A DNA stretch of 64,000 nucleotides from Tubiluchus corallicola (lineage: Eukaryota; Priapulida; Priapulimorpha; Priapulimorphida; Tubiluchidae), in the NCBI GenBank assembly GCA_030141605.1, contig JAQGDQ010000077.1:74501-138500 (forward strand), in the 5' to 3' direction. The notes beneath the pieces were generated by a model. That model had not been told where the DNA came from. It did not search any database and worked only from the letters and a program-made list of their open reading frames with translations. Both the position numbers and the translations under genes were made by a program. How positions within the stretch are numbered: position 1 is the stretch's first letter; each line of letters opens with the position of its first letter. Positions 1,992-64,000 of this stretch are shown here, piece by piece.

Positions 1992-4900
1992 AAATGTTAA
2001 AATTATGCACAGATATTTGTATTTCGTTTGTAGAATTTCTGTAAACTTCAGTTTTGAGGTTTAAGGTTTGCATGGCTTCGCTAGACGCCTTTTGGCTGAT
2101 TATTTTCTTCAGGAAGAGACGTCATCCGAACAGATTTCTCTGGTCACCCCTCCCACGTCGCCTCCGGTCAAGTCGGAATCGCCGCCCAGCGTGGAGGTCG
2201 TGCGCGACGTGAAGAAGCCGTCCATGAGACAGAAGACGACGGAGAAGCACCCGAAGCGTCGCGTCAGCTTTGACCCGCTGGCTTTGCTACTCGACGCCTC
2301 GTTAGAGGGAGAGCTGGAGCTCGTGATGAAGACGGCTAAAGAGGTTAGTGGCCGATGCAGCTTGCCCTATCATTACATTTTCATCATCATCAATTTTTTT
2401 CAGTAATTTTTGGCTTTTTTCTCCTCTTCTACTTGCATTACTTACTTACACTCTAATTTTACCTTCATGTCGTCTCTTTTCATTGCGCATCTCTTTTATC
2501 CTTCCCCTAACCTCTAACAACTCACCTTGCATTGCAGCTGGGCTTTCCGTTCATCCTTCATTCATTAATTCGTTCGTTCGTTCACTCATTCTTTCATTCA
2601 TTTATTGATTCAGTCGCCGTCCATTCATCCTTCATTCATTAATTCATTCATTCACTCATTCATTCATTCATTCATTCACTCATTCATTCATTCATTCATT
2701 CATTCGTTCACTCATTCATTCATTCATTTATTGATACAGTTATCCTTCATTCATTCATTCATTCGTTCACTCATTCTTTCATTCATTTATTGATTCAGAC
2801 GCCGTCCATTCATCCATTCATTCATTCGTTCGTTCATTCGTTTGTCCGTTCATTCGTTCATTCATTCATACATACATTCATCCTTCCCCTAACCTCAAGC
2901 AACTCACCTTGCATTGCAGCTGGGCTTTCCAAGTTCCAGCTTTTAGCTCAGCTGCAAGCAGTTACATCATTTGTTCACTAATTGACTGCTCACTTGAAAA
3001 GTAATTTTGTTTTCAGTTTGTGTTATTGTATGTACAATGAGGTACAGCCTCGGGTATAAGATACTCGCTTATAAGGGACCACCAACACCCGTCTCGATTT
3101 TTCGTAACGTTTTTCCTTATAAAAATCTTTGTATAAGGGACTTTCGGTTATAAGGGACGATATCTTCAGGTCCCACGTAATAGAAACCCGGGTAAATTAC
3201 CTCGCATATAAGGGTCCCTATGATTTTTGCAAAATTGTTCGATTTTTAATCTCAATTTTTTGCAAACTCGGCCTTCAAACAGCTCGGTTTCCGTACATCT
3301 CACATCACAAGGAGCTTCCTACATACTGTTTGCACTGAATGTGTAGCAATAATCCATAAAAATATGTGTAAAAGTACAGAAAAGTACAGGTCTATATACA
3401 CACTCGATCTGACTCAACATGCCGATACTAATTTAATACAGTAGGCGCCGTATATTAGACTCAGTAATGTAGAATCGCCTAATTGTCTCAAAAACGTCTA
3501 GTAGGAGCCGCTCCTGACGTACAAGCTACACACTTGTCGTTACGTGCTGCTTGGTTGCACTGAAGTAATGATGTAAACAAAGTGACAGCGGTCAGTTCGC
3601 GAAACAATGCACTTTGTCCGTAATATGCGGGACTTTATAACCGTCGAGATTTCTATCTGTACGAGCGAGGTTCGACAAACCGAGAAACGAGCGTATTTCT
3701 GTTTGCATTTATTTATGCTTATTAAGAAATGTGTATTCTATGCCTATAAAACATTTTAATGCATGTTTAATTACACTTTAGTAACAGTCGGGTCTCACTA
3801 GAGGGGCTTTCACACTAGGTCAGTCTGTCTGTTAATTTAGTCACTCTTTTCATTTTAGGTTCTGCAAATTCACAGTTTTGTTCTAGTAATTTGATTTTGG
3901 CACTGATAACAGAACGTGGACACTGGTCGCCACTAGTAACAGCTTCTTCTCGTTACAGGTACCGAATCCCAGCGCCTCTAACGACGAGGGCATCACTGCC
4001 CTGCACAACGCGATATGCGCGGGCCACTACGACATAGTCAAGTTTCTAGTTGAATTCGGTTGCGACGTGAACGCAGCAGACAGCGACGGCTGGTAAGTAG
4101 CTGAACATGTCTAATGGCATAATCAAAGTTAAGCATCGCCAAGGCTGATCAGTAAATGAATGGGGAACAACTTCATTTAATACTCTTTCTAGGCCATTTC
4201 GTTCTGTTGCAGAGGAATGCAGCAGACAGCGATGTTTGATAAGTAGTTGCACATGTTTGCTATCAATCCTTAATAGCATAACCGAAGTTAAGCATTGCCA
4301 AGGCTCGTCAGTAAATGGATGGAGATTAATAAGTCCTTTTTAGTCCATTTCATCCACCATGTTGAATTCTTCCTTATTATGGGAAGGTATCCGAGTGTGG
4401 CTTCTGCCAGTTCAGTGTTTCGTCTTAGAGGATTGGTGGTGCTAGGTTCAGGTCTTGCCACAGCCTTCAAGGCTAAGTAGACTTTGCTTTTGAGCATTGA
4501 GTGCTAGATTCCAGCTTGTAGAGTGACAAACTAGGTTTAAATACCTACCTGTAGACGGTAATTATTAGGGTGAGCATTTGTCACTAGAAAACGAATTCCG
4601 AATCAAATCTAATTTGAGATATTTGAACTCGAATTAAACTAAGTTTTAGCACTTTCCAATCCGAATTAAATTCGAATTCAATTTTAAGGATTTTCGAATA
4701 AATTTTCGACTCACTAATAAAGCCAAGATCTTTCATATTGCTTGATTTTGTTCTGCAGTAAAAACGCTATTAATTTGCTTAAGAAATCACAGCTGAACTG
4801 TATTAATTGCATGTTTCTAATGTTTTAATAATAAAGAATGTATGTAGTTAAAGTGCTGAATTACTCGAATCTATAATTTTAGATTCGAATCGAATTTTTT

Positions 4901-7900
4901 TACTTTCGATCCTAAACCAAAGTTATAGTACAGTAGTACCTCTGTTTTCGACCATAATTCTTTCCTAAAAAGTGTTTGAAGACCGAGAACCGAATCATTT
5001 ATTCCCATGAGAAATAATGTAAAAGCAAATAATCCGTTCTCAAGCACCAAATGAACTGTAAAGTATTACTAAAACGAAATATGATAATGCAAAAATGTTT
5101 ATTCAAACAGTAGATATGATATAATTGATAAGAAAAACATAACAGAATTCCTTAGAAAGAAAAACATAATTGTTCCTGCATGAAAAAGCGGAGAAAAATA
5201 ATTGTTGTTAGACGATTCAAATCTTGTGCGTGACTACTCTCGGGTGTGGTCGGTTGCGCTGGGCTCGGCTCGGCTCGCCGCTCATATGTTCATCACGTGT
5301 TTGGCGGTTGGTCGAGAGCAGAGACTATTTCAGCTCGAATTTTCTGGTCGAAAACCGATTTGTACGAGTACGGAGGTACGACTGCAGTAGTATTTTTATT
5401 GTCATTACGACCAACAACATTGCATGTACATTTACAACAACAAGTAACGTGCAATATTACAAACGATACAAATATTAGTTAACAAATTTTGCTAAAGTAT
5501 AGCAGAAGATAAACAGCAATGACAGTAATTTTTTTAACGTAATAACATCTAAAAAGGTATTAATAGTCAGATAACAATTTAGTGATAAATTTTTAGCTAA
5601 GTTAACTGTCGTTTACATAAATAAATTAAGAATATCGCCTAAAAATTTTCCGCAGGTTAAAGGGTTGGTATTACGAAAGTCCAGAGCATTACTTAAATTT
5701 AGATTGTATTTTTCTCTCTTTGCTTTTGTTAGTTCACAAACAGTAACGACGTGCTCTTCATCTTGCACTGCGTTAGTGCAGGGGCACAGCCTTAGGTCGT
5801 GTGGGACAGGGGTCCATGCCAACGTCCTGCGTTACTGCAGGGATACAGCCTTAGGTCGTGTGGGACAGGGGGTCCATGCCATTGCCCTGTGTTACTGCAG
5901 GGACACCACCTTAGGTCGTGTGGGACGGAGGGTCCAATGCCAATGTCCTGTGTTACTGCAGGGACACAGTCTTAGGTCGTGTGGGACAGGGGGTCCAATG
6001 CCAATGTCCTGTGTTACTGCAGGGACACAGTCTTAGGTCGTGTGGGACAGGGGGTCCAATGCCAACGTCCTGCGTTACTGCAGGGACACAGCCTTAGGTC
6101 GTGTGGGATAGAGGGTCCAATGCCAATGTCCTGTGTTACTGCAGGGACACAGTCTTAGGTCGTGTGGGACAGGGGGTCCATGCCAACGTCCTGCTTTACT
6201 GCAGGGACACAGCCTTAGGTCGTGTGGGAAAGGGGTCCAATGCCAACGTCCTGCTTTACTGCAGGGACACAGCCTTAGGTCCTGTGGGAAAGGAGGTCCA
6301 TACCGAAACTTTAGATGTTCATAGTACGGCATCCGTAAGAAATTATATCTTTTAAAACGTGCCAGTTGAAACTGATGATTCCCTTGAGTTTGTTAATTAA
6401 CTAATTAATTAATTAAATTAATTACATATTAAAGTCTTACGCTTTGGCAGGACTCCGCTTCATTGCGCCGCATCCTGCAATAATCTGCCGATGGTGAAGT
6501 TCTTGGTCGTCCACGGAGCGTGCGTGTTCGCCACCACGTACAGCGATCACGAGACCGCTGCCGAAAAATGCGAGGAGGACGAGGAGGGCTTCGCCGGCTG
6601 CTCCGAGTACCTGTACGGTAAGTTTGCTTCGAAGCCAGTTTATTTGGTGAAGCAGTATCTAGTTAGAAAAAATATAAAAGCTGTATGTCACTATACGGAA
6701 TTTGCCTACCTGTTATACATTCTACAGTAAATGATATGTTACCTTTTTTGGACATATTGCAAAAAATCGCACTATCATCATCATCGTCGTCGTCATGATA
6801 TACCCGTTAGATCTATCGTAGAAATTGGGCCGGCAGAATTCTAAAAGGAAGAAATCCGCCCTCAAACACGGCAGCAATCCAGCGAAAGACTAGACACTGC
6901 TATGTCAGTGGCTTGTCAGCACCACTTCCCACAAATTTCACTACATTCTCTATTCGTATTCTTGCAAGATGAGAAACCTTTTTGCCTTACTGGTTTGTTC
7001 GGTGATTAGACCGGCTCTGTGGCATGATTTTTAAGCGTTACCTATAATGATATACGAAGTCTACAGGCTTTCTTAGACACATTCGTTTACTCATAATGAA
7101 AAATGCCATCTGGTTTTAAAACAAGATTGTAAGGACAGCATATGTTGTCTGATTGCTTTTGAGTGTAAATATGTTGCATTACATCATACGCTATAAATAG
7201 TTTGAAGGAATAAAATATACTTTCGCTTTTGAAATGAGGTGTAGCAATAATCGTAAAATGTAGTTTGATGAGCTCTCATCATTGTTGCGGCTGCTTCTCT
7301 GACTACCTTTCTGTTTTTATGGGTGAAACATTTTTAACCTTGAATGATTTTTTTGTGTGCAGTTAGATTTTTGGAATGAATGAAAAACCACAATCCCAAA
7401 CGGCTTGTGACTGCCTCGGCTCGGTACTCGTTTGCACGGAATAATTCGCCGTACCGATTCTGGCTGTTTACGCAGTAGAGGCAGATTGTATGTACATCCG
7501 AATGTGGCTAAGACCACTTTGCTGTTCAGTGGTCATTTTACAGGGATACCTTTGACAATCAGCCAGATTTTGACGCCGCTTTCCAATACTGGCTTTCCGT
7601 TTGCACTGGGCCGATATGTAAGATGTTCTATTATTTTTATTGCGCAGGCATTCAAGAGAAGTTGGGAGTGATGAATAACGGCGCCATCTATGCAGTATTT
7701 GATTACAAGTCCAGCGAATCGGACGAATTGTCGTTTAAGGACGGCGACATGATGTTTGTGCTGCGTAAGGGAGATGAGACGGAGAGTGAATGGTGGTGGG
7801 CGAGGCACAAAGATAGGGAAGGTTACATACCGAGAAACTTACTTGGGGTATGTCTGTAGAAATCTTACTGTACTAGTTAATACTTGTCTGTTTGCTTGCC

Positions 7901-10924: not shown

Positions 10925-11473
10925 CCAATTACTAATGATATTTTCTGATTAGGCACGTATCTTTACTAGATGTTCTCTCTGCGCAAAATGCTGTTTCTTC
11001 ATAACTAATGCTTACGAAATTTTCTATAGTTTGTTAGGGTAAATTTGTGTTAGGATTCTGAATGAATTTGAGGCAGGCAAAGTTAAGATTTTTTAACTCC
11101 TTCAGAACCATAAGCATTTGATGCATTTTGCATGGATTGAAGAAGAACTGCTCTCAGCAAGTAGCCACTACATTATATTTGATAAGTAAGTTTCTACTCC
11201 TCAAGCATTGGGCTTTCATGCAAAGTCACATATGAGACACTTCTGTTTACCTTGGACAAATTAAAATATCGATTATTGCCGAAAAAATTGAAAAAAGCTT
11301 TCAGTAACTGCATTGTTTGCACTGTAACAATGTACAGTAATGCTTGTGTGAAATCAGCTAATGCAGAAAATTTCAACTATGCAGACACAACACTCTGATA
11401 AACTTTGGTCTCGAGTCTACTTTGTTTTGAAAGAGAAATTCCTGTTAAAAGATTAAACGACCTTAATTTGACC
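10925..11473. other. Gene-free stretch
   Basis: AT-rich DNA between a MITE and the direct repeat. I see no exon, RNA gene or repeat boundary in it. Confidence 0.5.
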
Positions 11474-12320
11474 TTGGCTGTTTGGTTGGTTTTTCCTGGA
11501 ATAGCAGCAGAACACTGCACAGCTTGGGCTGTAGTAAGCAGGTGATCTATAAATTAGTGTGTACGATCACGCAAGTGTACACCAGACTAATCTACTCAAA
11601 AGCCAAGTTGGAATGCCTGAAGAGGGCGTGTTTTTCTTAATTTTTTCAAATTAAATCACTTATAAATGTATAAACAAATGGCATGATTGGATGGCTGAGA
11701 TTCTCCTGAATAAAACAGTACCTAATTTGTAATCATTTAGTTATGTCTGTGCTCATACAGTAGCAGAAAAGACATGGGTCCTATAAGAGCTATTTTGGAT
11801 GGTGTGTTTCTTGAAGGAGTTAATTTCGTTTTTATTCCATGAGAGACATACAGTGAAAGCTCTATACCCCCTACTTTGGACTGCAAAAGTTGGCATACGT
11901 GAATTGGACATTATAACTAGGTACATCAATACATACATCTCTATGCAAATATAGACAATTAGTTTTGCCAAAAATATGAGCGTCAAGTGAGGTTGATTTA
12001 TAAACTGGAGCATTATAACGAGGTTTTACTTTATGCACAAATTACTGAAACTTAAGTTTAAAAATCACTGATATTATACTAATATGTACAAACTCAATTT
12101 ATAAAACTACTATTTACAAATTCAAGTTTAATATCAGATTATGTTATTTTCTAGAGTTTGATACCCTACCAATGCTACAAATTAGTTTTTTTGGTTCATT
12201 CATACTTTGTTAGATTCGTAAGATTATTTTACTGCCTACTACATGTATAAATTATTGTTATTTATTCCTACAATTAGCGAATACTTTGACACTGTTTTTA
12301 ATGCTGTTGAAATATAATTA
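11474..12320 (+). repeat. Direct repeat A, left copy
   Basis: About 0.85 kb starting TTGGCTGTTTGG and including GCACAGCTTGGGCTGTAGTA and AAGAGGGCGTG. It recurs in the same orientation at 17923-18740 with scattered substitutions and small indels. No coding frame. Confidence 0.92.
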
Positions 12321-13776
12321 GTTGAGGTTTGTGGTGTATCATGTATGTGTAGATTTTGATTTGAAGCCGAAAAAGCACCGTAAAGTTTGTATTTTATCTT
12401 TCTTTGCCAAGATCAAGTTAAGTTGAGCAGTTTTAAACCATTGTATTTCTTATTGCGTTTTGCCTTGCATATTATTGTTTCTACCAGCAGGTGTGTCTTG
12501 CAGTAGTAAAATAAAAATGATATCTTGTTATTTCCTGGATCATATAATTATTCTTTTGTTTGTTTTTATTTAAAGTTACAAATCCAAATCATCTCTTAGG
12601 GCGGGCATCACCAAAAGTGGTCGTTATCGTACCCTGGGGGTTTATCCAAGGGTCGATAAACGTCTGGGGGGCAAAAAGGGGTCGGTTTGCAAAATGTTTT
12701 TTAACATTACATTACTAGTTAAGAGACAGAAAAGTGGGCACGGGGTTATAAAATTAAATTCCAATATATTTAACATTTGTTTTTATAAAAAACAAAAAAT
12801 TCATATTTGACCAAATTTTTTGGTACATTCTACTTTATGGACGGTTTTGCACACGTGCTTTGCATTCGTAAGGATCGAGGAGAATTGACAGGCGTAATGT
12901 CTTCCGTGCCTTCAACTTTTACCTTTCGTGAAAAACACACCTCTTTTAGTCAATGCTTCGTCTAACACTAAATTATAGCTTTCAGCATTAAGATTTGAGC
13001 CATGCTGTAATGCTCCATACTGAGCCATTGTAAAAAGTTGGACTGTATTATCAATAACCAGCTTGTCAGATTTCGTAAATTGAAATGCACGAGTAAAACT
13101 GCAATGTCGTAATTCTGTATTTTAGTGCCGAGTTTTCAACAAAGGAAATTTTCGTGTGCCAACCTCCGATAGCTGGCGCCACAGTAACTTCCGATGCTTT
13201 GCGCACGTGTATTTTGGCGTAACAAAATATAATTTTTTTTAATATCTGCATGTTTTCGCAAAAATGAATACAAATTGCCGCCTTTCTTGAAGAAAAACAT
13301 TTTTATTCGCAACTTTGCAAATCTATCTAAAATATCTTGCTAAAAAAATCAACAAATTTATGTACAAATTTTTCGTCGAAATAATTATGCATCGAACACA
13401 AATAGTTATTCGAGTAAGCAAATGATTGATAACAAAGATTTCATTAAAATTTTATTTGTGCTAAAATTATTGTTTCATATATATACTACGCAACTTAATC
13501 TAAACCTGTGTTCGGTTTCGTTCAATCATCTAGAGTCACATGGGTACAGAATTTAATTATTGTAGCTGGGGTTACAGTCAGATATTGCGATGAATTTCAA
13601 AGTAGGCCTACTAGGCTGTGCTGTCAAACTCTGGACCACAACTCGATTAAGTTCTAAACTTGTTTTCAAATAATTAACTGCAAGAAAAATTTCAGTTTCG
13701 TAGTCCAATGTGGTAATTCATGAGGTTCGTTATCTGATATTGCTGTTGGTTGTTTAAGGTTTTATCGGTATCCAAA

Positions 13777-13995
13777 CTAGTAGTAGCCACCATAATATCC
13801 TCTGCCATATCCCCTGCCATATCCACGGTAGTATCTCGGCCGGTAGCGTCTTCTATATCGTGGTCTGTAGCGGTAGCCATATCCCCTGCCATATCCATAG
13901 CCGCGACGTCCGTAGCCACGGTATCGGCCCACATATCCTCCACCATAATAACCGCCGCCCCCATAGCTGTAGCCGGCCTGCACGGTAACCAGCGC
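13777..13995 (-). CDS. Gly/Tyr/Arg-rich peptide, exon 2 (left copy)
   Basis: Minus-strand exon after acceptor CTTTTAG, starting ALVTVQA|GYSYGGGGYY and continuing for about 60 residues of GYGRGYG, RPRYRRRYRPRYY and GYYGGYY, then stop. ALVTVQA has the small-x-small pattern of a signal-peptide end, so the mature peptide probably begins at GYSYGG; this is inference. A possible polyadenylation signal (TTTATT on +) lies near 13451. The composition recalls shematrin-like shell-matrix proteins and other secreted GY-rich peptides, but no family can be assigned. Exon 1 with the initiator Met was not identified for this copy. Another frame is also open because of the codon composition. The protein is identical to the right copy. 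Confidence 0.6.
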   Translation of the reverse strand, partial: ALVTVQAGYSYGGGGYYGGGYVGRYRGYGRRGYGYGRGYGYRYRPRYRRRYRPRYYRGYGRGYGRGYYGGYY

Positions 13996-14039
13996 CTAAA
14001 AGAAAAAGTAATTATGGAAATTATCTTGGAATAAATTCA

Positions 14040-14458
14040 TAATTACCAGAAATGATTTATCTTGCAAGCTACGATGTCTCCTATCATAGTTCAACTTTTG
14101 AATACCCTGCCATCAAATTTAAAACAAATCAAGTCTTTCGACGAATTCAAATCAAAATTAAAAATGCATACATTGAATCGTTTTGAAAACCCAGCATACG
14201 TAAACGATAATATATCTTCATCCGCAAATTTTATTTACCCACGTCCATTTTAAATTATATGTATATATTGTATATAGTCTACTATAATTTGCGTGTAACA
14301 TTATAATGTATATTTTGTTTTAAATTTTTGGCACAGTAGCTTTTAGTTTGCACTGGACGCATTTGCCTTTAACAGCTGTGTGAATTTTACTGTCATGCTG
14401 CGATGTTCTTTTATGCTTTTATAGTTATGAATATCGATTTTTCATGGCAAATAAAGAT

Positions 14459-14460
<2 letters not shown>
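14040..14460 (+). pseudogene. LINE (CR1/L2-like) 3' end, left arm
   Basis: The frame at 14062-14253 reads LLNTLPSNLKQIKSFDEFKS and ends PRPF-stop, the 'NsLP..ik...sf..FKskLk' tail of CR1/L2-type RT proteins. A 3' UTR follows, ending GGCAAATAAAGATTATTAT and running into (TA)n. 5'-truncated; the mirror copy is at 15870-16290. Confidence 0.75.
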
Positions 14461-14524
<64 letters not shown>

Positions 14525-14562
14525 TTATAATTATAAATATAATTATATATATATATATATTT
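14461..14562 (+). repeat. (TA)n microsatellite
   Basis: TA dinucleotides, interrupted around 14518-14540. It forms the 3' tail of the LINE fragment and the inner edge of inverted-repeat arm B. Confidence 0.95.
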
Positions 14563-15867
14563 ATTTATCATCAACAGACGGCGCCACGTGCTCAAAACAT
14601 CTTAATCAAGGTACTAGTGTTGTCAACTTCACGCATACTTCTCGATAATAATAGAAAACGCAAACGTTTGTCAATATGTTCCTCTAGTAATAGCACCCCT
14701 ACACACAACTTGTCATCCCTACACACAATTTGGCACCCTCGGTTGTAAACGTCAGCGTCGTCGAACAACATGTAAAATCACGTAAACATTTCTAGCTAAG
14801 GGCATCACAGTTTTAAATATTTAGGTATTCGCTGCCACCCCCCACCCCCCTTCCGCAATTATTTCTATCCTAGATGCTTATAATTCACTCTGGGCTAAGT
14901 CAACGGGAAGCCGACTTGTAGTTCTTGGAGTATTTGTTAGACTCTCTGCCTCCTTATTCGATTCAGCACTTTATTGAACTATGAACTATGAATTTATTTT
15001 CAAACATCAAAATACATTATCATACGCATTAATAAACTTTAAATAAAATGATTTGAGTAGTGCGAGGTAAGTGTACGACCATACGGTCATTAACACACTC
15101 ACCTTACTTACATGAAAAAATGATTATAGTTATGCATGCTTCTGTAGATATAAATGTAATGTAAACTTAATGTAAATAAGGATGAAGTAAATGATGTAAT
15201 AATAGCAATGGTATAAGAGCAATAAACCTGAAAGTTGAGAAAGGAAAACATAATATGTAATTACGACTTTGAGTGAGCCTTAAAGAGTGAAATTTTTTTT
15301 TTAAATAGTTACGAATATGAATTATGTGATTATCTGTCAATGTACCACTTACTTGTATTACAATACACCATATTGCTTACTTGTATATACAATGATTTAT
15401 ATATATATATATATATGTACTCAAATTTATGTGGGGGAGAAGATTTAGCGGAAACCTGCTGAATAGAAATGGCAAAAAACATGTGGGTTGGAGACAAAAC
15501 TGAAGAAACACGATAAAAACATATTTCGACGAGAGACGGCGTTAGATGAATGCGATTATTCCTACTAATTATTGAGTTTGTTTAACTCGCCCACTAAGGC
15601 CTACATAAAAAAAACTAGTGCCAATTTTGTGCCGGTAGGGACACAAGCTGTACTGAGGTACTATAACTCAAAGAAAAATACATAAAAGTTACTTCTAAGA
15701 ACACGTCAAAGTAGTGAATTTGACAATTATAACAACACAACAGATCGCGCATGCGCGCCACCCTATGAAAAATAATAAATATATACAATTCTACAATTAT
15801 TTTATATCACAAATATAAATATATATACATACACAATATAAATATAAATATAAAACAAATAAATATA
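14563..15867. other. Spacer between inverted arms
   Basis: 1.3 kb of single-copy sequence between the 5' sides of the two divergent Gly/Tyr-rich exons. It contains a CpG-rich palindrome GCGCATGCGC at 15747-15756. A short hydrophobic frame, ATG at 15550 reading MRLFLLIIEF, could with a weak donor (TTT|GTTTAA) join the right-copy exon 2 in phase to give a 17-residue signal peptide. That join is speculative. Confidence 0.4.
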
Positions 15868-15869
15868 TA

Positions 15870-16290
15870 TAATAATCTTTATTTGCCATGAAAAATCGAT
15901 ATTCATAACTATAAAAGCATAAAAGAACATCGCAGCATGACAGTAAAATTCACACAGCTGTTAAAGGCAAATGCGTCCAGTGCAAACTAAAAGCTACTGT
16001 GCCAAAAATTTAAAACAAAATATACATTATAATGTTACACGCAAATTATAGTAGACTATATACAATATATACATATAATTTAAAATGGACGTGGGTAAAT
16101 AAAATTTGCGGATGAATATATATTATCGTTTACGTATGCTGGGTTTTCAAAACGATTCAATGTATGTATTTTTAATTTTGATTTGAATTCGTCGAAAGAC
16201 TTGATTTGTTTTAAATTTGATGGCAGGGTATTCAAAAGTTGAACTATGATAGGAGACATCGTAGCTTGCAAGATAAATCATTTCTGGTAA
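15870..16290 (-). pseudogene. LINE (CR1/L2-like) 3' end, right arm
   Basis: Minus-strand frame 16271-16080 is nearly identical to the left-arm copy (LLNTLPSNLKQIKSFDEFKS), with the same 3' UTR. Confidence 0.75.
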
Positions 16291-16337
16291 TTATGAATTT
16301 ATTCCAAGATAATTTCCATAATTACTTTTTCTTTTAG

Positions 16338-16556
16338 GCGCTGGTTACCGTGCAGGCCGGCTACAGCTATGGGGGCGGCGGTTATTATGGTGGAGGATAT
16401 GTGGGCCGATACCGTGGCTACGGACGTCGCGGCTATGGATATGGCAGGGGATATGGCTACCGCTACAGACCACGATATAGAAGACGCTACCGGCCGAGAT
16501 ACTACCGTGGATATGGCAGGGGATATGGCAGAGGATATTATGGTGGCTACTACTAG
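16338..16556 (+). CDS. Gly/Tyr/Arg-rich peptide, exon 2 (right copy)
   Basis: The exon starts after acceptor CTTTTAG at 16337 with GCG CTG GTT ACC GTG CAG GCC (ALVTVQA), then GYSYGGGGYYGGGYVGRYRG, several GYGRGYG and RPRYRR blocks, ending GGYY and TAG. Identical in protein to the left copy and transcribed divergently from it. AATAAA at about 16877 gives a plausible 3' end. The peptide is strongly basic and aromatic, about 61 residues after the inferred cleavage site. Secreted matrix, cuticle or antimicrobial roles are all possible; none is shown by sequence. An upstream exon encoding the start of the signal peptide is needed; the best local candidate is the 15550 frame, weakly. Confidence 0.6.
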   Translation, partial: ALVTVQAGYSYGGGGYYGGGYVGRYRGYGRRGYGYGRGYGYRYRPRYRRRYRPRYYRGYGRGYGRGYYGGYY

Positions 16557-16876
16557 TTTGGATACCGATAAAACCTTAAACAACCAACAGCAATATCAGA
16601 TAACGAACCTCATGAATTACCACATTGGACTACGAAACTAAAATTTTTCTTGCAGTTAATTATTTGAAAACAAGTTTAGAACTTAATCGAGTTGTGGTCC
16701 AGAGTTTGACAGCACAGCCTAGTAGGCCTACTTTGAAATTCATCGCAATATCTGACTGTAACCCCAGCTACAATAATTAAATTCTGTACCCATGTGACTC
16801 TAGATGATTGAACGAAACCGAACACAGGTTTAGATTAAGTTGCGTAGTATATATATGAAACAATAATTTTAGCACA

Positions 16877-16882
16877 AATAAA
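16877..16882 (+). terminator. Candidate polyadenylation signal AATAAA
   Basis: AATAAA about 320 bp downstream of the right-copy Gly/Tyr exon stop, mirrored in the left arm at about 13451. Confidence 0.45.
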
Positions 16883-17922
16883 ATTTTAATGAAATCTTTG
16901 TTATCAATCATTTGCTTACTCGAATAACTATTTGTGTTCGATGCATAATTATTTCGACGAAAAATTTGTACATAAATTTGTTGATTTTTTTAGCAAGATA
17001 TTTTAGATAGATTTGCAAAGTTGCGAATAAAAATGTTTTTCTTCAAGAAAGGCGGCAATTTGTATTCATTTTTGCGAAAACATGCAGATATTAAAAAAAA
17101 TTATATTTTGTTACGCCAAAATACACGTGCGCAAAGCATCGGAAGTTACTGTGGCGCCAGCTATCGGAGGTTGGCACACGAAAATTTCCTTTGTTGAAAA
17201 CTCGGCACTAAAATACAGAATTACGACATTGCAGTTTTACTCGTGCATTTCAATTTACGAAATCTGACAAGCTGGTTATTGATAATACAGTCCAACTTTT
17301 TACAATGGCTCAGTATGGAGCATTACAGCATGGCTCAAATCTTAATGCTGAAAGCTATAATTTAGTGTTAGACGAAGCATTGACTAAAAGAGGTGTGTTT
17401 TTCACGAAAGGTAAAAGTTGAAGGCACGGAAGACATTACGCCTGTCAATTCTCCTCGATCCTTACGAATGCAAAGCACGTGTGCAAAACCGTCCATAAAG
17501 TAGAATGTACCAAAAAATTTGGTCAAATATGAATTTTTTGTTTTTTATAAAAACAAATGTTAAATATATTGGAATTTAATTTTATAACCCCGTGCCCACT
17601 TTTCTGTCTCTTAACTAGTAATGTAATGTTAAAAAACATTTTGCTAACCGACCCTTTTTGCCCCCCAGACGTTTATCGACCCTTGGATAAACCCCCAGGG
17701 TACGATAACGACCACTTTTGGTGACGCCCGCCCTAAGAGATGATTTGGATTTGTAACTTTAAATAAAAACAAACAAAAGAATAATTATATGATCCAGGAA
17801 ATAACAAGATATCATTTTTATTTTACTACTGCAAGACACACTTGCTGGTAGAAACAATAATATGCAAGGCAAAACGCAATAAGAAATACAATGGTTTAAA
17901 ACTGCTCAACTTAACTTGATCT

Positions 17923-18740
17923 TTGGCTGTTTGCTGGTTTTTCCTGGACAGCAGCAGGTCACATCGCACAGCTTGGGCTGTAGTAAGCAGGTGATCTATA
18001 AATTATGTACGATCACGCAAGTGTACACCATAGACTTAATCTACTCAAAAGCCAAGTTGGAATGCCTGAAGAGGGCGTGTTTTTTCTTAATTTTTTCAAA
18101 TTAAATCACTTATAAATGTATAAACAAATGGCATGATTGACGTATTGAGATTCTCCTCAATAGAACAGTACTTAAATTGTAATCGTTTAGTTATGTCTGT
18201 GCTCATACAGTAGCAGAAAAGTTCTTGGTCTTATAAGACATGTTTTGAATCGTGCGTTTCCTGAAGGAGTTAATTTATTCCTTGGCAGACATGCAGTGAA
18301 ACCTCTATACCGCGTACTTTGTACTGCAAAAGTTGGCATAAGTGAGTTTGACATTATAACTAATTACATTAATACATACATCTCTATGCCAATATAGACA
18401 ATTAGTTCTGCCAAAAATATGAGCGTCAAGCGAGGCTGGCTTTATAAACGGGAACAAATTACTGAAACTTAAGTTTAAACATCACTGATATCATACTAAT
18501 ATGTACAAACTCAATTTATAAAACTACTATTTACAAATTCAAAAGTTTAATATCAGATTATGTTATTTTCTAGAGTTTGATACCCCTACCAATGCTACAA
18601 ATTAGTTTTTTTGGTTCATTCATACTTTAATAGATTTCGTAAGATTATTTTACTGCCTACTACATGCTAAATTATTGTTATTTATTCCTACAATTAGCGA
18701 ATACTTTGACACTGTTTTTAATGCTGCTGAAATATAATTA
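17923..18740 (+). repeat. Direct repeat A, right copy
   Basis: Same orientation as 11474-12320. Divergence (indels in TAAATTA(GTG)TGTACG and several substitutions) is clearly greater than between the inverted arms. Confidence 0.92.
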
Positions 18741-18751
18741 TTATCATTTGT

Positions 18752-18957
18752 TGAAAATTTTCTTGCTTTCTGTCCTGTATTGTGCTAGCGTAATAATAAT
18801 CTTTCTTATGTAGGTGTAGTTTTTTATTTACAGAACATTCCGACAAAACCCTCATTGCAGGCTTGTACTGTTTATTGAATTTAAAGCCGATTTTAAATAA
18901 AAGTTATTGTTATTATTACGCTAGCACAATACAGGACGAAAGCAAGAAAATTTTCAG
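18752..18957 (+). mobile_element. Foldback/MITE-like palindrome
   Basis: Arms of about 48 bp: TGAAAATTTTCTTGCTTTC..GTGCTAGCGTAATAATAA and its inverse at 18909-18957, around a ~110-bp loop. Non-coding. Confidence 0.85.
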
Positions 18958-19256
18958 TAAATTCAATGATGGGCGGACTTTACTTAATTATGTATTAGTC
19001 TGTGAGTAGAGTGAATTATTAACAGGATCTTGCTTTGGAAACAATAAGAAATGAACTAGATAAGGTTCCAGCTAGCTGTTAAAACTGTTATTATTACAAT
19101 GGCATGGACTGCGAGGCGTTGTCAAGCGTACACGAATGTGTCGTCTGATACACTTAACCTTTGACCTTTCACGATCATTATCAATTGCTAGAACTGTGAA
19201 AAGGCTTATTCACTAAAACTGAACTGAGCAAATTGTCTTTGAAAATTTTTCTCTAC

Positions 19257-49400: not shown

Positions 49401-52400
49401 TGTTTATGCATATTTTGATTACATTATCGCTGTCTTAAAGATTAATAAAGAGTTTCCGTATTTTAGATGATCCTCTAACCAGCACTGTATATTGTACAGT
49501 ATGTTCAGACCAAATTATTCTGGTACCTGTGAACTGCGCTAGACGACATCCTGCTCTTAACGTACTTGTGTGCAAGGTGAAGTGATTTATTTTAGTGGTT
49601 ATTTAAATAGTATTAGTAAATTCTAGCTTGTTGGCAAGATTTCTTGTACTTCAACAGTGAAAAGAAATATGTTGAACACTTGATTGCGGTTTAGGTATAG
49701 TTACCAATGATAATCACTTGTTGAAATATTTTTAAAGTTGCACCTTTTTTCAATTCGGCAATATCATGTGTGCTTACATGAATCGCTCACCAGGAATTTC
49801 TTCGTTAGAATAGTGCAATATCGTTGCAAATGCACAGTTAACACAAAGTGAATCAGCTGAAGCAACAAACACAGAAAAGACATTTACTGCCAACATTTTT
49901 GTAACACGTAGCTGCAAATTAGTTTTATTATTAGATTTCAGTTGTAACAGAAACTTGCAGCAGACAACTTTTGGTAAATACTCCAGAACGATTAGCCTAA
50001 TAATGACAAGAAAGTTGGTAAATATGACACTGTCTGCAAGAGCTGCACTTTTACTGTAAGCATTGTCGTGTATAATTTGAGGAATTTGTGCAGAATGTGA
50101 TTTGATTTTTTAAATAAATCATTAATTTTATTTCAGAAATGCTATCATTTCTACAAATCTGGCGAGTGGAGCAAGGATGAAGATGGCATAGACGAATTCT
50201 GTCGTTGGTGTGCTCAAGGTGGCAATCTCATCTGTTGTGATTATTGCACGAACGCATTTTGTCAAACGTGTATTAAAAACAACCTTGGTCGCGGCGAATT
50301 GCGGAAGTTACGGGAAGCGGGAGAGGAAACCAAGTGGAGATGCTATGTGTGCAACCCTATTCCCATTAATGAAGCCATTGAAAGATGTGAATCTGTTTTC
50401 AAGAAATTAGCACAAATTGAAAAAGAAGAGCAAGAAGCAGAACATTCAAAGAAACTGATAATACCGCCGTCTTGTAGTAGTGAGCATCTTTTTACTATTG
50501 TCGATGACCTTGAAAAATCTATTAGTGCTTTACAGTCACATTTGCAGTCAGTGAAATCAGAACTTTGCACTGCAACAACTAGTACAAAAGACAAAACTGA
50601 TAGTGAACTGCAGAACACATCTAGTTGTGGACAGAAAAGCAGTCATAATTCTGTGAGTGCTTCAGTGTTAGCACCAGAGACAGCGATTTTGAAGGTTCAT
50701 TTAGTAACCTTGAAATTAAAAAAGTGTTTCAAAAGGTCAACAAAAGCCTTGTTACATCCTTCCAAATTGAAGGAGAAAAAAGCTAATTTAGCTTCTGTTG
50801 AAAGTACAGTGAATGAATCTGTGATATTAGAATCAGGTGATTCAAACAGCTCCAAAACACCTAAAAAAGTTAACTGCAAAGGAATAGAAGAAATATCTCT
50901 AGTCGAAGAAACTATTTTGTCAGATGAAGAACAGCCTGAGACTGTAACGGCTATCGATGAGACTGTAGATTCCGAACCAGAAGCTACATTTATTAATAGT
51001 CATCCAGAAACAACTCTTGTTCTTAAATCAAAGCCGACTAGTGTGAAAGTTACAGACGTTACTGAGCAGTATAAACCTAAACTAGTTGTGCTTGATGATG
51101 AGCCAGACACACCTGTGAAAAAATGTCATCCAGGTCAAGGTAAGCGACGTCACAGTGAATTAGGAGGTAAGACTGTATTGAATGAAAAGTGCGCTAAATT
51201 ATCAAATTCAAGAACTATTGATAGTGACGATGATGATGTACAGTTTATACCATCTGATAGTGAATCTGCCAAATCAAACTGTTTTAGTGGCAAGTTTATT
51301 TCAGAAGAGCAAATAAAACGCCATTTGCAATTAGAGCGCAGTGCTAAAGAATCCGAAGAACAGTTTTTAGCAAGATTAGAGAGAGCGGTTAAACAACTCA
51401 GCTGTGCTAAGAATTTTAAAGAATACACTCGGCGACTTCTAAAAGAATCGCTTAGTGACCAGAACAAGTTTAACGAATTCGGCCCAGAAGTGATAGATAT
51501 TTTGACCGAACTTGTTGGAAGCGACGAGGATGAATTTGACAGCAACAATACAGCTGAAATTAATGTTGAGAATAAAATTAGTAATAGAAGTGCAAGTGAG
51601 TTAGATAAATCAGACATGCCTCGCATGAAAGTGACTAGTCTGCGTAAGATGCGCAGTGCCACCGACGTGGAGGCTGAAAAACGGTTATTAGCTGAAATAG
51701 CTAGTGAAAATAGTGAAGAACACGAAGAAGAAGCTGATGAATCAGATAATTCTAAACAAGGACCAACAGCGCAAGCTCCACTAGCAAAGTCTGAGAGTGT
51801 TTCTGTTTTAAAAACTGCAATGCTAAAACTTTCGCCTGTAAAAATTGATGACATTGATTTGAAAATTACGGAAAAAGTAGCACCCACTCGGAGTAAGGTA
51901 AATAAAGCTGTTAAAGGGCGAATTGTGCCAGCCAACAGCAGTTCTGGTAGTGAGGATTTTTTAGAGAAGGAAATTGCTGACACAGATAAGTATATCGGTC
52001 GGAAAAAGAATAGTTTAAAAAAAAAGAAAAAAGCAGATGCAAAAATTGTCAATGATGACAATTCTGGATCAGAAGACTTGGATAAAGAAATTGACAAACT
52101 GGCAAAAATCACTTTTCTGAAGAAGAAACCAAATAAAGAAGAAACTAAAAAAGACCTAAACAACGTGGAAGAAAAAAGTCAAGATGCGGAAAAAGTCACG
52201 CAGCAAACTGCAGATGGTAAGTTTGTACATGCATTTTTTCTTTAAATTACTACAAATGAATGCTTCCACCTTTGGGCTTCAGTTTACTGTGCTGTTTACT
52301 GGCTATTTTATAGTCCTGTTTGTGATGTTTCTGAAGGATTTTATTGAGCAATCGTTGGTGGTTAAGTTCTGTAAAGTTTCTCCACATTTTTGTTTCAGGA

Positions 52401-61400: not shown

Positions 61401-63773
61401 AGGCTGCAGCAAAAGCTGAAGAGGAGAGGCGAAAACGAATAGCTGAACGTCAGAAAAAGGTTAGTTTTACATTTCATTTTTGTATCATGTAACAAAAATC
61501 ATATTATTGTTTTCGTCATTGTGCAAGTAGTATCTAATTACAACCGTTGTTCTTTTGTTCTGAACACGCTATTGTTTTTTACATAGGCCCAGAAGCATTT
61601 TCATCCATGTAGAAATTTAGGATTTAGAAACATCCTGTACTTTGATGGAAGTCAGTAATATGTAATATTTGATTTTCTATCTGAGTAAACTATTTTGAAG
61701 CATTTATGAGGTCATAGAAATTTGAAATTCCAGCAAAAGTTTATCAATAACTTGTTTGCAGTGTGTCATTAAATAGTATTAGGAAGCGTTGGTAAACCTG
61801 CTGATAAAAATTAGTTATAAAATTGTATTAAATCCTAAATAAACGAGGATATTTTTCTGGAGAAACATTGATAGTAGTATGTTTATGGAAAAACATCTTC
61901 CATTCCATTGCTATAAATGTGCTTCTAGTATATTGTTATTAATTAGTGTAATTTAACTTACAGTACAACAATATTGAACAAATAGTTGATGAACAATCTC
62001 CTACAAAGTGTCCAATCACCACAAAGCTAGTATTAGAACGTGATCCCGAAACAGGCAAACCGCTGGTTGAAGTGGCAAAAGAGCTGTGCCTGAAACTGAA
62101 ACCTCATCAAGTGGAAGGTGTAAATTTTTAAATTTTATATATTATGTATAAGTTATCCGTTTAAAAGTGACGCCTTATTATCAGATACGTAGTTAGTATC
62201 AGTTATTATCACACACCTAAAGTATAGTATCCTTACAATGAATTCACAGTCATATTACGTATAATTGAATTTATGTTACGTATAAAAACTGTCTTTTTCC
62301 AAAGAAGAGAAATAATGAAATCACAAATTTCTTTGCTTTTATATACCTAACCCAGGTAATTAATAAAACACGATAATTTGAACGTTCGCAATACTGTACC
62401 TGCAGATTCTGCACTCAGCAACTTTTCTTGCGAAGTGTTCGCATAGTCTTATGTAATCAGCAGACAGCCGTCGTTGCAGAAACAAGCGCAATGCATAACA
62501 GATTTATGGTATGGCCATACATATTTCAACTAATTCAACCAATAATTTGCTAGCATAAGTACTGGACTAAAAGTTTTACCGATATTAGTAGCTTTTAAAG
62601 GAAGTATGAAAGCATTAAACTGAGGTTTTAGTCCTTGATTGGTGCTATAAAATTGATAGACATTATCGATATAATCGATAGAAAATTGATAGACTGCCAG
62701 ACAAAAAATGGGGAGCAACAGCAAAAACTTTACTTTAATTCACTGAATGACATTTAGCGAACTTTTGTTTTTGCATGTTGCAGGTGTGCAATTTCTATGG
62801 GATTGTCTGGTTGAGACTTTGGAGCAGCTTAAGAATGGAGAAGAGGGAGGCGGTTGCATTCTAGCCCACTGCATGGGTTTAGGAAAGACTTTGCAGGTCA
62901 GTTACAGCGATGTGTTCTGTGTGGTTGCCAAAGTTTCTTTGTTCAAAGTTAGAGTGTGTTGAACATTTTTGCAAGTTGATTTCAACTGAAACAGTTTTTC
63001 AGAACTTTCTTTACTAATTTTATTGTATTTTAATGTTTGGTTTTCTAAGTATTGTACTGTATTAGTGTGTTTGTCTTCAGACGAACCCACAAGCTAAGTC
63101 CTATTTTTGCACAGCAGCTTTTTACTAATGCACATTTGAAAATTCTATTACTTTCGTGATCAGGAAGGAACGTTCTATACCTGTGATTATTGATAAGGAG
63201 TAACAGTGAAAATGCTTATCTTGAGGTTTTTGTAAATGTAAGGAAAGTTAAGTGCCAGAAACTTCTATTTCAAACCTTTGTGTAGCACTCAAGCTTTTGG
63301 CCAGCATTCAGTTAAATATTTGTGGCCTTTTAAACAAGCTTCGATTTTATTAACTTAGCTATTTGAATTCATTAAATTAAAGCAAGCTTGCATGCTCATC
63401 TTTTTGAAAAGCAGTGGAAATGGTAATTTTTATAAATGATTTTTCCGCACACTAACAGAGCTTGTGATTTATACATTTTTATCACTATGCATTAGTTAAT
63501 TCACATTAACGTGTACTTGCGTTTTTATTTACAATTTAATGCTTTCTCTATTAAAAAAACTCCATTCTATTTTAGTATTTCATTTATCAAGTGAAATGTA
63601 ACAGTTTTATTTTTTTCCAGATAATTGCTCTTGTTCATACTTTGTTGATGGCCAAAAGAACCTCAAAATATTTCCGTACTGTCCTAGTGGTGGCACCGCT
63701 TAACACAGTGCTTAACTGGCAAACGGAGTTCGCTAAATGGCAAGAAGATTTGGATGAAGATGACACATTGGTT
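43322..63773 (+). CDS. ATRX: ATRX chromatin remodeller, N-terminal and central part, 15 exons
   Basis: Exons 43322-43429, 44786-45000, 48757-48852, 49467-49576, 50137-52216, 52882-53084, 53667-53784, 57066-57204, 57383-57520, 58715-58871, 59971-60069, 61289-61459, 61964-62117, 62784-62896 and 63621-63773 join in frame to about 1350 residues, open at both ends. Domain order: a short N-terminal region; an ADD domain (GATA-like finger plus PHD finger) across 49467-50370; a long Ser/Asp/Glu/Lys-rich region; [40 protein letters not shown]; then Snf2 motifs [27 protein letters not shown] (motif I) and [20 protein letters not shown] (motif Ia). In vertebrates ATRX with DAXX deposits histone H3.3, and its ADD reads H3K9me3 with unmethylated H3K4. 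The remaining helicase motifs lie beyond the window. Upstream exon(s) with the start codon are missing. Confidence 0.95.
44786..45000 (+). CDS. ATRX: ATRX exon b, with PxVxL-type motif
   Basis: Acceptor GGGATGCAG, donor AAAAG|GTAATG. Encodes [20 protein letters not shown] and on to [24 protein letters not shown] at 44790-44804 fits the HP1 chromoshadow-binding PxVxL pattern. Confidence 0.85.
45371..46844 (+). mobile_element. Possible hAT element with a nested LINE fragment
   Basis: Left AAGGGATGTGCACGAA and right, inverted, TTACCGATGTGCATACGAA look like paired termini about 1.47 kb apart. Internal CGAAACCGAG and GATACCGAAAC words fit. A LINE 3' end lies inside. No target duplication was confirmed. 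Confidence 0.45.
45663..45965 (-). pseudogene. LINE (CR1/L2-like) 3' end in ATRX intron
   Basis: Minus-strand frame: [27 protein letters not shown], a stop, [20 protein letters not shown], then [20 protein letters not shown] and a stop. This is the classic CR1/L2 ORF2 C terminus. The 3' side runs into (TA)n at 45663-45732. Confidence 0.85.
48757..48852 (+). CDS. ATRX: ATRX exon c
   Basis: Acceptor TGTTACAG. Encodes [20 protein letters not shown] and on. Two donors keep phase: TTTTG|GTAATT at 48852 and ACTG|GTGAGA at 48867, differing by five codons. Either or both may be used. Confidence 0.8.
49467..49576 (+). CDS. ATRX: ATRX exon d, GATA-like zinc finger of ADD
   Basis: Acceptor TATTTTAG, donor CAAG|GTGAAG. 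Encodes [18 protein letters not shown] and [13 protein letters not shown]; the fourth Cys (KKCYHF) is in the next exon. Confidence 0.93.
50137..52216 (+). CDS. ATRX: ATRX large exon e: PHD finger of ADD and charged region
   Basis: Acceptor TTTATTTCAG, donor GATG|GTAAGT. 2080 bp. It starts [11 protein letters not shown] and [19 protein letters not shown], with the full Cys set through AFCQTCI and WRCYVCNP. It continues with a coiled coil ([20 protein letters not shown]), acidic patches ([16 protein letters not shown]) and a helical block [20 protein letters not shown]. An open antisense frame is a composition effect. Confidence 0.96.
52882..53084 (+). CDS. ATRX: ATRX exon f, acidic
   Basis: Acceptor TGTTTTCAG, donor CAAG|GTTTTC. 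Encodes [20 protein letters not shown], then an Asp run coded by GATGATGAT repeats, then [13 protein letters not shown]. Confidence 0.88.
53667..53784 (+). CDS. ATRX: ATRX exon g
   Basis: Acceptor TGCTTTCAG, donor GATG|GTAAGA. Encodes [20 protein letters not shown] and [13 protein letters not shown], a probable helix. Confidence 0.87.
53833..54821 (+). mobile_element. hAT element (Charlie-like), 989 bp, with 8-bp target duplication
   Basis: Flanked by identical CTTATGCC (53825-53832 and 54822-54829). Termini GGTCGTGTGCAAAT and, inverted, CAGGGGTGTGCAAATTGCGG with GGCCCGCGGGCC. No transposase frame recognised. Inserted in the ATRX intron between exons g and h. Confidence 0.9.
57066..57204 (+). 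CDS. ATRX: ATRX exon h
   Basis: Acceptor TTTTGCAG, donor CTAA|GTAAGT. Encodes [20 protein letters not shown] and a Ser/Asp-rich stretch typical of the ATRX linker. Confidence 0.87.
57383..57520 (+). CDS. ATRX: ATRX exon i, Lys/Ser-rich
   Basis: Acceptor TATTGTAG, donor AAAAG|GTGGGA. Encodes [20 protein letters not shown], then runs of Lys. Probable nuclear localisation segment. Confidence 0.87.
58298..58505 (+). repeat. Interspersed repeat shared with inverted arms
   Basis: Words GTTATAAAA, AGTCCAATATGTTTAGCATT, TGTTTTTGTAAAAAA, GACCGAATTTTTGGGTCATT and CTACTTT align in order with 12733-12865 (and its mirror in the right arm). An unidentified dispersed element. Confidence 0.6.
58715..58871 (+). 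CDS. ATRX: ATRX exon j with tandem NAGNAG acceptor
   Basis: The acceptor reads CTAGTAG. Splicing after either AG keeps frame, giving SRSRED or RSRED. Donor AAAAG|GTATGC. Encodes [20 protein letters not shown] and a Lys-rich tail. Confidence 0.87.
59971..60069 (+). CDS. ATRX: ATRX exon k, basic
   Basis: Acceptor CTAATTTTAG, donor AGT|GTAAGT. 33 codons: [19 protein letters not shown], then [14 protein letters not shown]. Class 0-0, so it can be skipped without a frameshift. Confidence 0.87.
61289..61459 (+). CDS. ATRX: ATRX exon l, pre-helicase helix
   Basis: Acceptor TATCGTAG, donor AAAAG|GTTAGT. Encodes [20 protein letters not shown] and [13 protein letters not shown], the conserved block just before the ATRX helicase. 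Confidence 0.95.
61964..62117 (+). CDS. ATRX: ATRX exon m
   Basis: Acceptor AACTTACAG, donor GGAAG|GTGTAA. Encodes [20 protein letters not shown] and [13 protein letters not shown], near-identical in pattern to human ATRX. Confidence 0.96.
62784..62896 (+). CDS. ATRX: ATRX exon n, helicase motif I
   Basis: Acceptor TGTTGCAG, donor TGCAG|GTCAGT. Encodes [15 protein letters not shown] and [16 protein letters not shown]. The Walker A GLGKT is at 62876-62890 and intact. Confidence 0.97.
63621..63773 (+). CDS. ATRX: ATRX exon o, helicase motif Ia
   Basis: Acceptor TTTTTCCAG, donor GTT|GTAAGT. Encodes [35 protein letters not shown] and an acidic QEDLDEDD tail. Last exon in the window. Confidence 0.96.
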
Positions 63774-64000
63774 GTAAGTTTTGTAGTAGCATATTACGCT
63801 GCAAATGTGAAATTTCTTAAATTTCAATCACATATTTATTCGCTGCACAACAATTTCTAGAGCATAACATTGACAAAATCACTTTTTATACATTTTTATT
63901 GCAAGTTCACACGCACCACTAAACGGCAGCTGATTCTATTGAAGGTGAAATCACTGAACTAATAGACAACTATCTGTATACTAATTAAGTTTGGCTTTGC

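Follow-up and report, generated by a model that had tools for sequence, protein, structure and literature searches.

A compound inverted structure in the genome of the priapulid Tubiluchus corallicola consists of two near-identical inverted arms (B and B′) that surround a spacer and are themselves flanked by direct copies of a block A. It was analyzed in a 64,000-nucleotide stretch of one contig (G000:C2019:74501-138500, hereafter the window, whose numbering is used below), and searches of the whole assembly covered 343.5 Mb in 2344 contigs. The locus is a real composite whose parts differ in age, and it is a new example of known processes, namely fold-back, arm-to-arm copying and interlocus conversion. 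The history tentatively favored, at somewhat below an even chance, is that an old fold-back palindrome later underwent copying between its arms while interlocus conversion acted beside it. Near-identical inverted arms are easily taken for the product of a recent duplication; here the decayed core, the younger repeat common to both arms and the mosaic next to them suggest that the identity stems from recent copying. If this is true, small palindromes can stay alike for a long time, and arm identity by itself would give wrong ages. Feature coordinates are collected in Table 1.

A listing of the repeats together with alignments of the window confirmed the block order A-B-spacer-B′-A. This order had been proposed in a preliminary description of the same DNA, which also held that neither a simple tandem nor a simple inverted duplication would produce it; both are indeed at odds with the order and with the differing divergence of the parts. 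The inverted arms, described as ~2.06 kb long, were recovered at that size. They differ by seven substitutions (at 12490, 12607, 12688, 13693, 14166, 14216 and 14471) and a one-base indel (at 12678) over ~2065 bp, a divergence of 0.34%. A second one-base indel lies just beyond the arm, between its end and a shared GCC. BLAST prolonged the arm match through AT-rich sequence to 14565/15774, and the identity between the arms steps down at ~14475. Two assembly searches each had 40 candidates scored, and in both the two arms alone matched over their full length, so that their pairing is far beyond chance. Inverted arms more than 99% alike, a feature of palindromes with arm-to-arm conversion, are present.

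An assembly or haplotype artifact, arising from a read through a sequencing hairpin or from the joining of two haplotypes, is very unlikely to have created the structure. Two other contigs (C344 and C269) do look near-palindromic, with matches to A placed symmetrically about the contig center. The two terminal 10-kb stretches of C344 match in inverted orientation at 99.4%, the arms of C269 are 98.4% alike around a 2-kb center (10 kb read), and both palindromes are possible assembly artifacts or joined haplotypes. However, the locus described here sits in a 711-kb contig, its arms are non-identical, its spacer is long, asymmetric and decayed, and among the best 40 candidates scored per search the full arms were reported at this locus only.

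The two halves of the spacer match one another in inverted orientation and in register with the arms when a repeat inserted in the loop is left out. The best local match between them has ~75% identity without gaps, with 43 of 225 columns gapped. Its score of 68 was reached by none of 2000 dinucleotide shuffles (mean 32.1, maximum 60), and in four of five scoring schemes 0 of 2000 shuffles reached the spacer score. The 6-mer matches between the halves peak at register 0 (14, versus 0–6 elsewhere). The spacer result came from a shuffle test of eight comparisons that involved the spacer, the gap on the left and the end of B′, and it was re-tested in two further analyses. The left core, used to search the assembly, returned itself and one 74% match of ~100 bp on contig C1461; the right core returned a single candidate, itself. 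The proposal that the spacer halves are a dispersed repeat is unsupported, the 74% match on C1461 being the sole other one in a search blind to equally decayed copies. The relative (C1461:1274001-1284000, positions 4300-5600 of that stretch) resembles mainly the left loop. In a smaller set of real control segments that leaves out the C1461 locus, 0 of 1158 reached the spacer score. Judged from these comparisons, the inverted homology of the spacer core is likely but not certain, being significant, modest and dependent on gap costs.

Both arms carry, at the same site, the end of a dispersed repeat that resembles a long interspersed nuclear element (LINE). The searches with this and the other repeats scored 40 candidates each (out of 2543 for the LINE-like repeat, 1505 for the first part of A, 1548 for the small repeat in B, 508 for the loop repeat and 422 for the second part of A), and all copy counts are therefore lower bounds. 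Thirty-eight further copies of the LINE-like fragment were 94–96% alike, a figure that gives the identity of the nearest copies among the best 40 of 2543. In six of six copies read, the repeat continues into upstream sequence that is missing from the fragment in the window. Since 94–96% nearest-copy identity compares with 75% for the core, the fragment should postdate the core duplication and is probably the younger of the two; its presence in both arms would then call for copying between the arms after its insertion. The class is presumably LINE, a label based on the anatomy. As a proven label it was rejected, because searches with the open frame of one copy yielded nothing relevant, the matches being one in Pfam (E=0.051, below the cut-off) and one in PDB (E=0.85). 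A 120-residue stop-to-stop frame over the element is listed in one copy read (L005) and not in another (L006).

These features are consistent with the following history. An old inverted duplication would have turned the locus of a peptide exon into a palindrome, folded head to head around a short loop, probably of ≤95 bp. The palindrome core would then have decayed to ~75% identity, and a dispersed repeat, visible in the anatomy, would have landed in the loop. Later one arm would have gained the truncated LINE-like repeat, after which ~2.07 kb of one arm may have been copied onto the other by arm-to-arm gene conversion, from the LINE-like tail outward and most likely from right to left. The copied tract would have run 14–17 bp into right A before being joined to the left flank. 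Right A, a duplicate of repeat-rich sequence, would have received a 247-bp tract through interlocus gene conversion, the donor being a copy on a different contig. Since near-identical arms enclose spacer halves that form an inverted repeat, decayed yet in register with them, the palindrome seems to be old and its outer arms to have been rewritten recently; divergence is ~25% (without gaps) for the core and 0.34% for the arms. That the arms are younger than the founding duplication is suggested, within the one genome compared, by a core ~75% alike (a modest homology) and by the younger repeat that the arms share.

Copying from right to left is hinted at by the tip of the left arm, whose outer 14 bp, once inverted, match the first 14 bp of right A exactly. 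The GCCAA/TTGGC microhomology reported where B′ abuts right A is present at that junction. It may alternatively reflect 14–17 bp of right A (14 of them exact) carried by the left arm, a proposal with moderate support. The ~85-bp gap described between left A and the left arm was likewise found, measuring 85 bp to the shared GCC (12321-12405) and 88 bp to the end of the BLAST arm match. The gap matched neither the inverted spacer, the spacer nor the left flank (62, 47 and 21 of 200 shuffles, respectively, reached the scores). It weakly matched the hairpin repeat downstream on the right, with a score of 42 versus 28.4 for the shuffles, 0 of 200 of which reached it.

The A blocks are direct copies of 859 bp (left) and 831 bp (right), 87.6% alike over 871 columns. 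Their description as ~0.83-kb direct copies holds; the left edge, placed at 11474, was 12 bp short of its position at 11462. The idea that A is a unique local block was ruled out, as A is pieced together from dispersed repeats. The first part resembles a miniature inverted-repeat transposable element (MITE), a class inferred from its anatomy. In a search that gave 1505 first-look candidates, of which the best 40 were scored, nine of 18 fetched copies align unbroken from 11080-11094 to at least 11820, and the remaining nine are split or shorter. The end of B′ showed no homology to the half of the MITE-like repeat that is missing from right A (135 of 200 shuffles reached the score; 41 of 200 for the last 80 bp). 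In the second part, one segment recurs, among the scored candidates, only in right A and, over 100 bp, on C948, another contig. The dispersed repeat of this second part also occurs as a head-to-tail array with steps of ~105–112 bp at G000:C2091:190540-191897.

Right A is mosaic. Its informative sites fall into three clean runs, 25 left-A-like, 32 C948-like and 44 left-A-like (0 of 100,000 permutations), the middle run marking a bounded patch identical to the paralogue on C948 amid sequence nearer to left A. The right side of the patch rests on nine well-aligned sites, and its right end coincides exactly with the end of the C948 homology. By this pattern of sites the 247-bp stretch is an ectopic (interlocus) gene-conversion tract. 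The identity of right A to left A is 0.870 inside the tract and 0.936 outside (P=0.0086), and that of left A to C948 is 0.870 inside and 0.887 outside (P=0.60), where the outside values exclude 18394-18505, all sequence beyond 18607 and columns with gaps. Because right-left identity is lower inside the tract while the identity of left A to C948 is roughly equal inside and outside, right A is likely the recipient. Outside the tract, the divergence of A is 0–7%, except for a 17-bp patch at 35%.

The composition of A bears on the account given in the preliminary description, a tandem duplication of A-B followed by fold-back of B. In its full form, that is, with a single recent fold-back around a unique spacer and chance similarity of the spacer halves, this account is unlikely. 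It draws on the 99.7% identity of the arms, on the outer A blocks being direct copies and on a spacer homology that hinges on gap costs. However, the spacer halves match in the expected register, A is built of dispersed repeats, and the A blocks are mosaic and less alike than the arms. The fold-back step is likely, whereas a single tandem A-B history is unsupported given the unequal divergence, the composite A and the mosaic right A. Features beyond those first described are the mosaic right A, the inverted homology in the spacer, and the dispersed repeats of which A and the ends of the arms are made.

Several results weigh against the favored history of an old palindrome with later arm-to-arm copying. 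The spacer match is gap-rich, and with standard costs (2,-3,-5,-2), which include the highest gap cost, 22 of 2000 shuffles reach its score; blastn with standard costs recovered only fragments between the halves. In the five scoring schemes 4, 4, 24, 8 and 4 of 3212 real control segments reached the spacer score, in a set that includes the C1461 locus, a sequence related to the left half. A genome search with either half did not report the other and would miss equally decayed relatives. The longest difference-free run in the arms is not clearly unusual (P=0.074), and inverted homology was looked for past the outer arm ends and none was found. The tip of the left arm is only moderately like the repeat family (left A 10/17; 9 of 5000 random sites equal). 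The LINE-like fragment is dated from its nearest copies. In the mosaic, good alignment with C948 (18506-18607) covers only nine of the 44 left-A-like sites on the right; the other sites are beside or beyond its homology.

The replacement of an old arm and the addition of a new one cannot be separated from one genome. If the left arm was added and not replaced, an old short inverted repeat, now the spacer halves, could have allowed a template switch by a replication fork or a broken end, from which a new inverted B was synthesized. Such a duplication is possible but on the doubtful side. It would produce the same identity step, would leave the LINE-like repeat in both arms and 14 bp from right A at the left-arm tip, and would leave no inverted homology outside the arms. 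For human inverted duplications, PMC3907307 describes a fold-back that involves short inverted sequences together with a spacer; for origin-dependent inverted-repeat amplification (ODIRA), PMC4689423 describes errors of replication where short inverted repeats are interrupted. However, the old inverted repeat must then yield to the new copy exactly at the LINE-like tail. More than one exchange is also weakly suggested by the lean of the differences toward the outer ends, as four of the eight lie within the outer 280 bp (P=0.015, for a boundary picked after inspection; three of seven and P=0.057 for substitutions alone).

The favored history has counterparts in known systems. Mammalian sex-chromosome palindromes that are kept alike by arm-to-arm conversion likewise have inverted arms more than 99% alike and a less conserved spacer, and conserved primate X palindromes have a median arm of 37 kb (both from an excerpt of PMC8981503). 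In contrast, the arms here are ~2 kb, the spacer is itself a decayed inverted repeat, and the structure is known from one genome. A human fold-back inverted duplication with a disomic spacer also has inverted arms around a loop and was possibly primed by inverted sequence (PMC3907307, same excerpt), whereas the present locus is interstitial, small and apparently old, with outer arms that are probably younger than the core. Interlocus conversion in segmental duplications likewise leaves a patch identical to a remote paralogue in a block nearer to another copy (excerpt of PMC10172114); here it concerns a single 247-bp tract in repeat-rich copies of one assembly.

Each arm contains a 72-codon Gly/Tyr/Arg-rich exon, an open frame without ATG that is preceded by AG and identical in the two copies. 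A search of the assembly with the peptide gave two candidates, both scored, which are the two arm copies. A scan of the spacer and flanks for an ATG-started hydrophobic first exon with a phase-0 donor found nothing convincing, and a Pfam search with the peptide gave no family; for these reasons the pair may be copies severed from their start. By eye, a 51-bp GT-AG stretch (16287-16337) directly precedes the right exon, and no in-frame ATG was seen between this exon and the LINE-like junction. A bolder reading, in which the small palindrome (~2-kb arms) is a local recombination hotspot whose arms are rewritten repeatedly, whose neighboring repeat takes tracts from other contigs and whose lineage-specific head-to-head Gly/Tyr/Arg exons are kept identical, is improbable. 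The best account of the structure is a history of DNA repair, with no sign here of benefit to the animal.

The loop repeat ends early at 15443, past which nine of 11 copies read continue with common sequence; its TAGTTCA-type tail suggests a retro-repeat.

Table 1 Features of the A-B-spacer-B′-A locus, in window coordinates.
Feature	Position	Strand	Remarks
Left A, first part: MITE-like repeat of ~730 bp, complete	11093-11823	+	short terminal inverted repeats (AACTCCTTCAG...CTGAAGGAGTT)
Left A (whole block)	11462-12320	+	
Left A, second part: older dispersed repeat (~11846-12037) and further segment	11824-12320	+	422 candidates, 40 scored
Gap between left A and left arm	12321-12408, 85-88 bp	.	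alignment
Left arm B	12409-14474, 2066 bp	+	alignment
Small dispersed repeat of B, also present inverted in B′	12696-12836	.	identity to other copies up to 92% across 76-83 bp (best 40 of 1548)
Gly/Tyr/Arg-rich 72-codon exon, left copy	13780-13995	-	open frame
LINE-like dispersed repeat in B	14088-14474	+	fixed 3' end, TA-rich tail; truncated at other end
AT-rich tail and flank	14475-14568	.	arm identity drops from >99% to ~75%
Left core arm	14569-14880	+	matches 15444-15775 in inverted orientation, decayed; best local match at 14620-14820
Probable original loop, ≤95 bp with the inserted repeat set aside	14881-14974	.	overlaps 74% relative on C1461
Dispersed repeat inserted in loop	14975-15443	-	508 candidates, 40 scored
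Right core arm	15444-15775	-	best local match 15521-15726
Right arm B′	15859-17923, 2065 bp	-	alignment; LINE-like end at 15859-16245 (-)
Gly/Tyr/Arg-rich 72-codon exon, right copy	16338-16553 (stop 16554-16556)	+	open frame
Right A	17910-18740	+	begins mid MITE-like repeat (3' half); downstream segment same as left A
Ectopic conversion tract in right A	18147-18393, 247 bp	+	identical to C948:49615-49861; 87% to left A
Hairpin-like inverted repeat directly after right A	18746-18962	.	70% self-inverted match

Elsewhere in the window, minisatellites occupy 5768-6300 (61-bp unit, 8.8 copies) and 756-1161 (72-bp unit, 5.7 copies). Open frames at 50101-52242 and 63576-63857 match ATRX. Ankyrin and SH3 matches lie in adjacent frames at 6422-6727 and 7512-7856, an order across 6422-7856 that we take to be ASPP-like.

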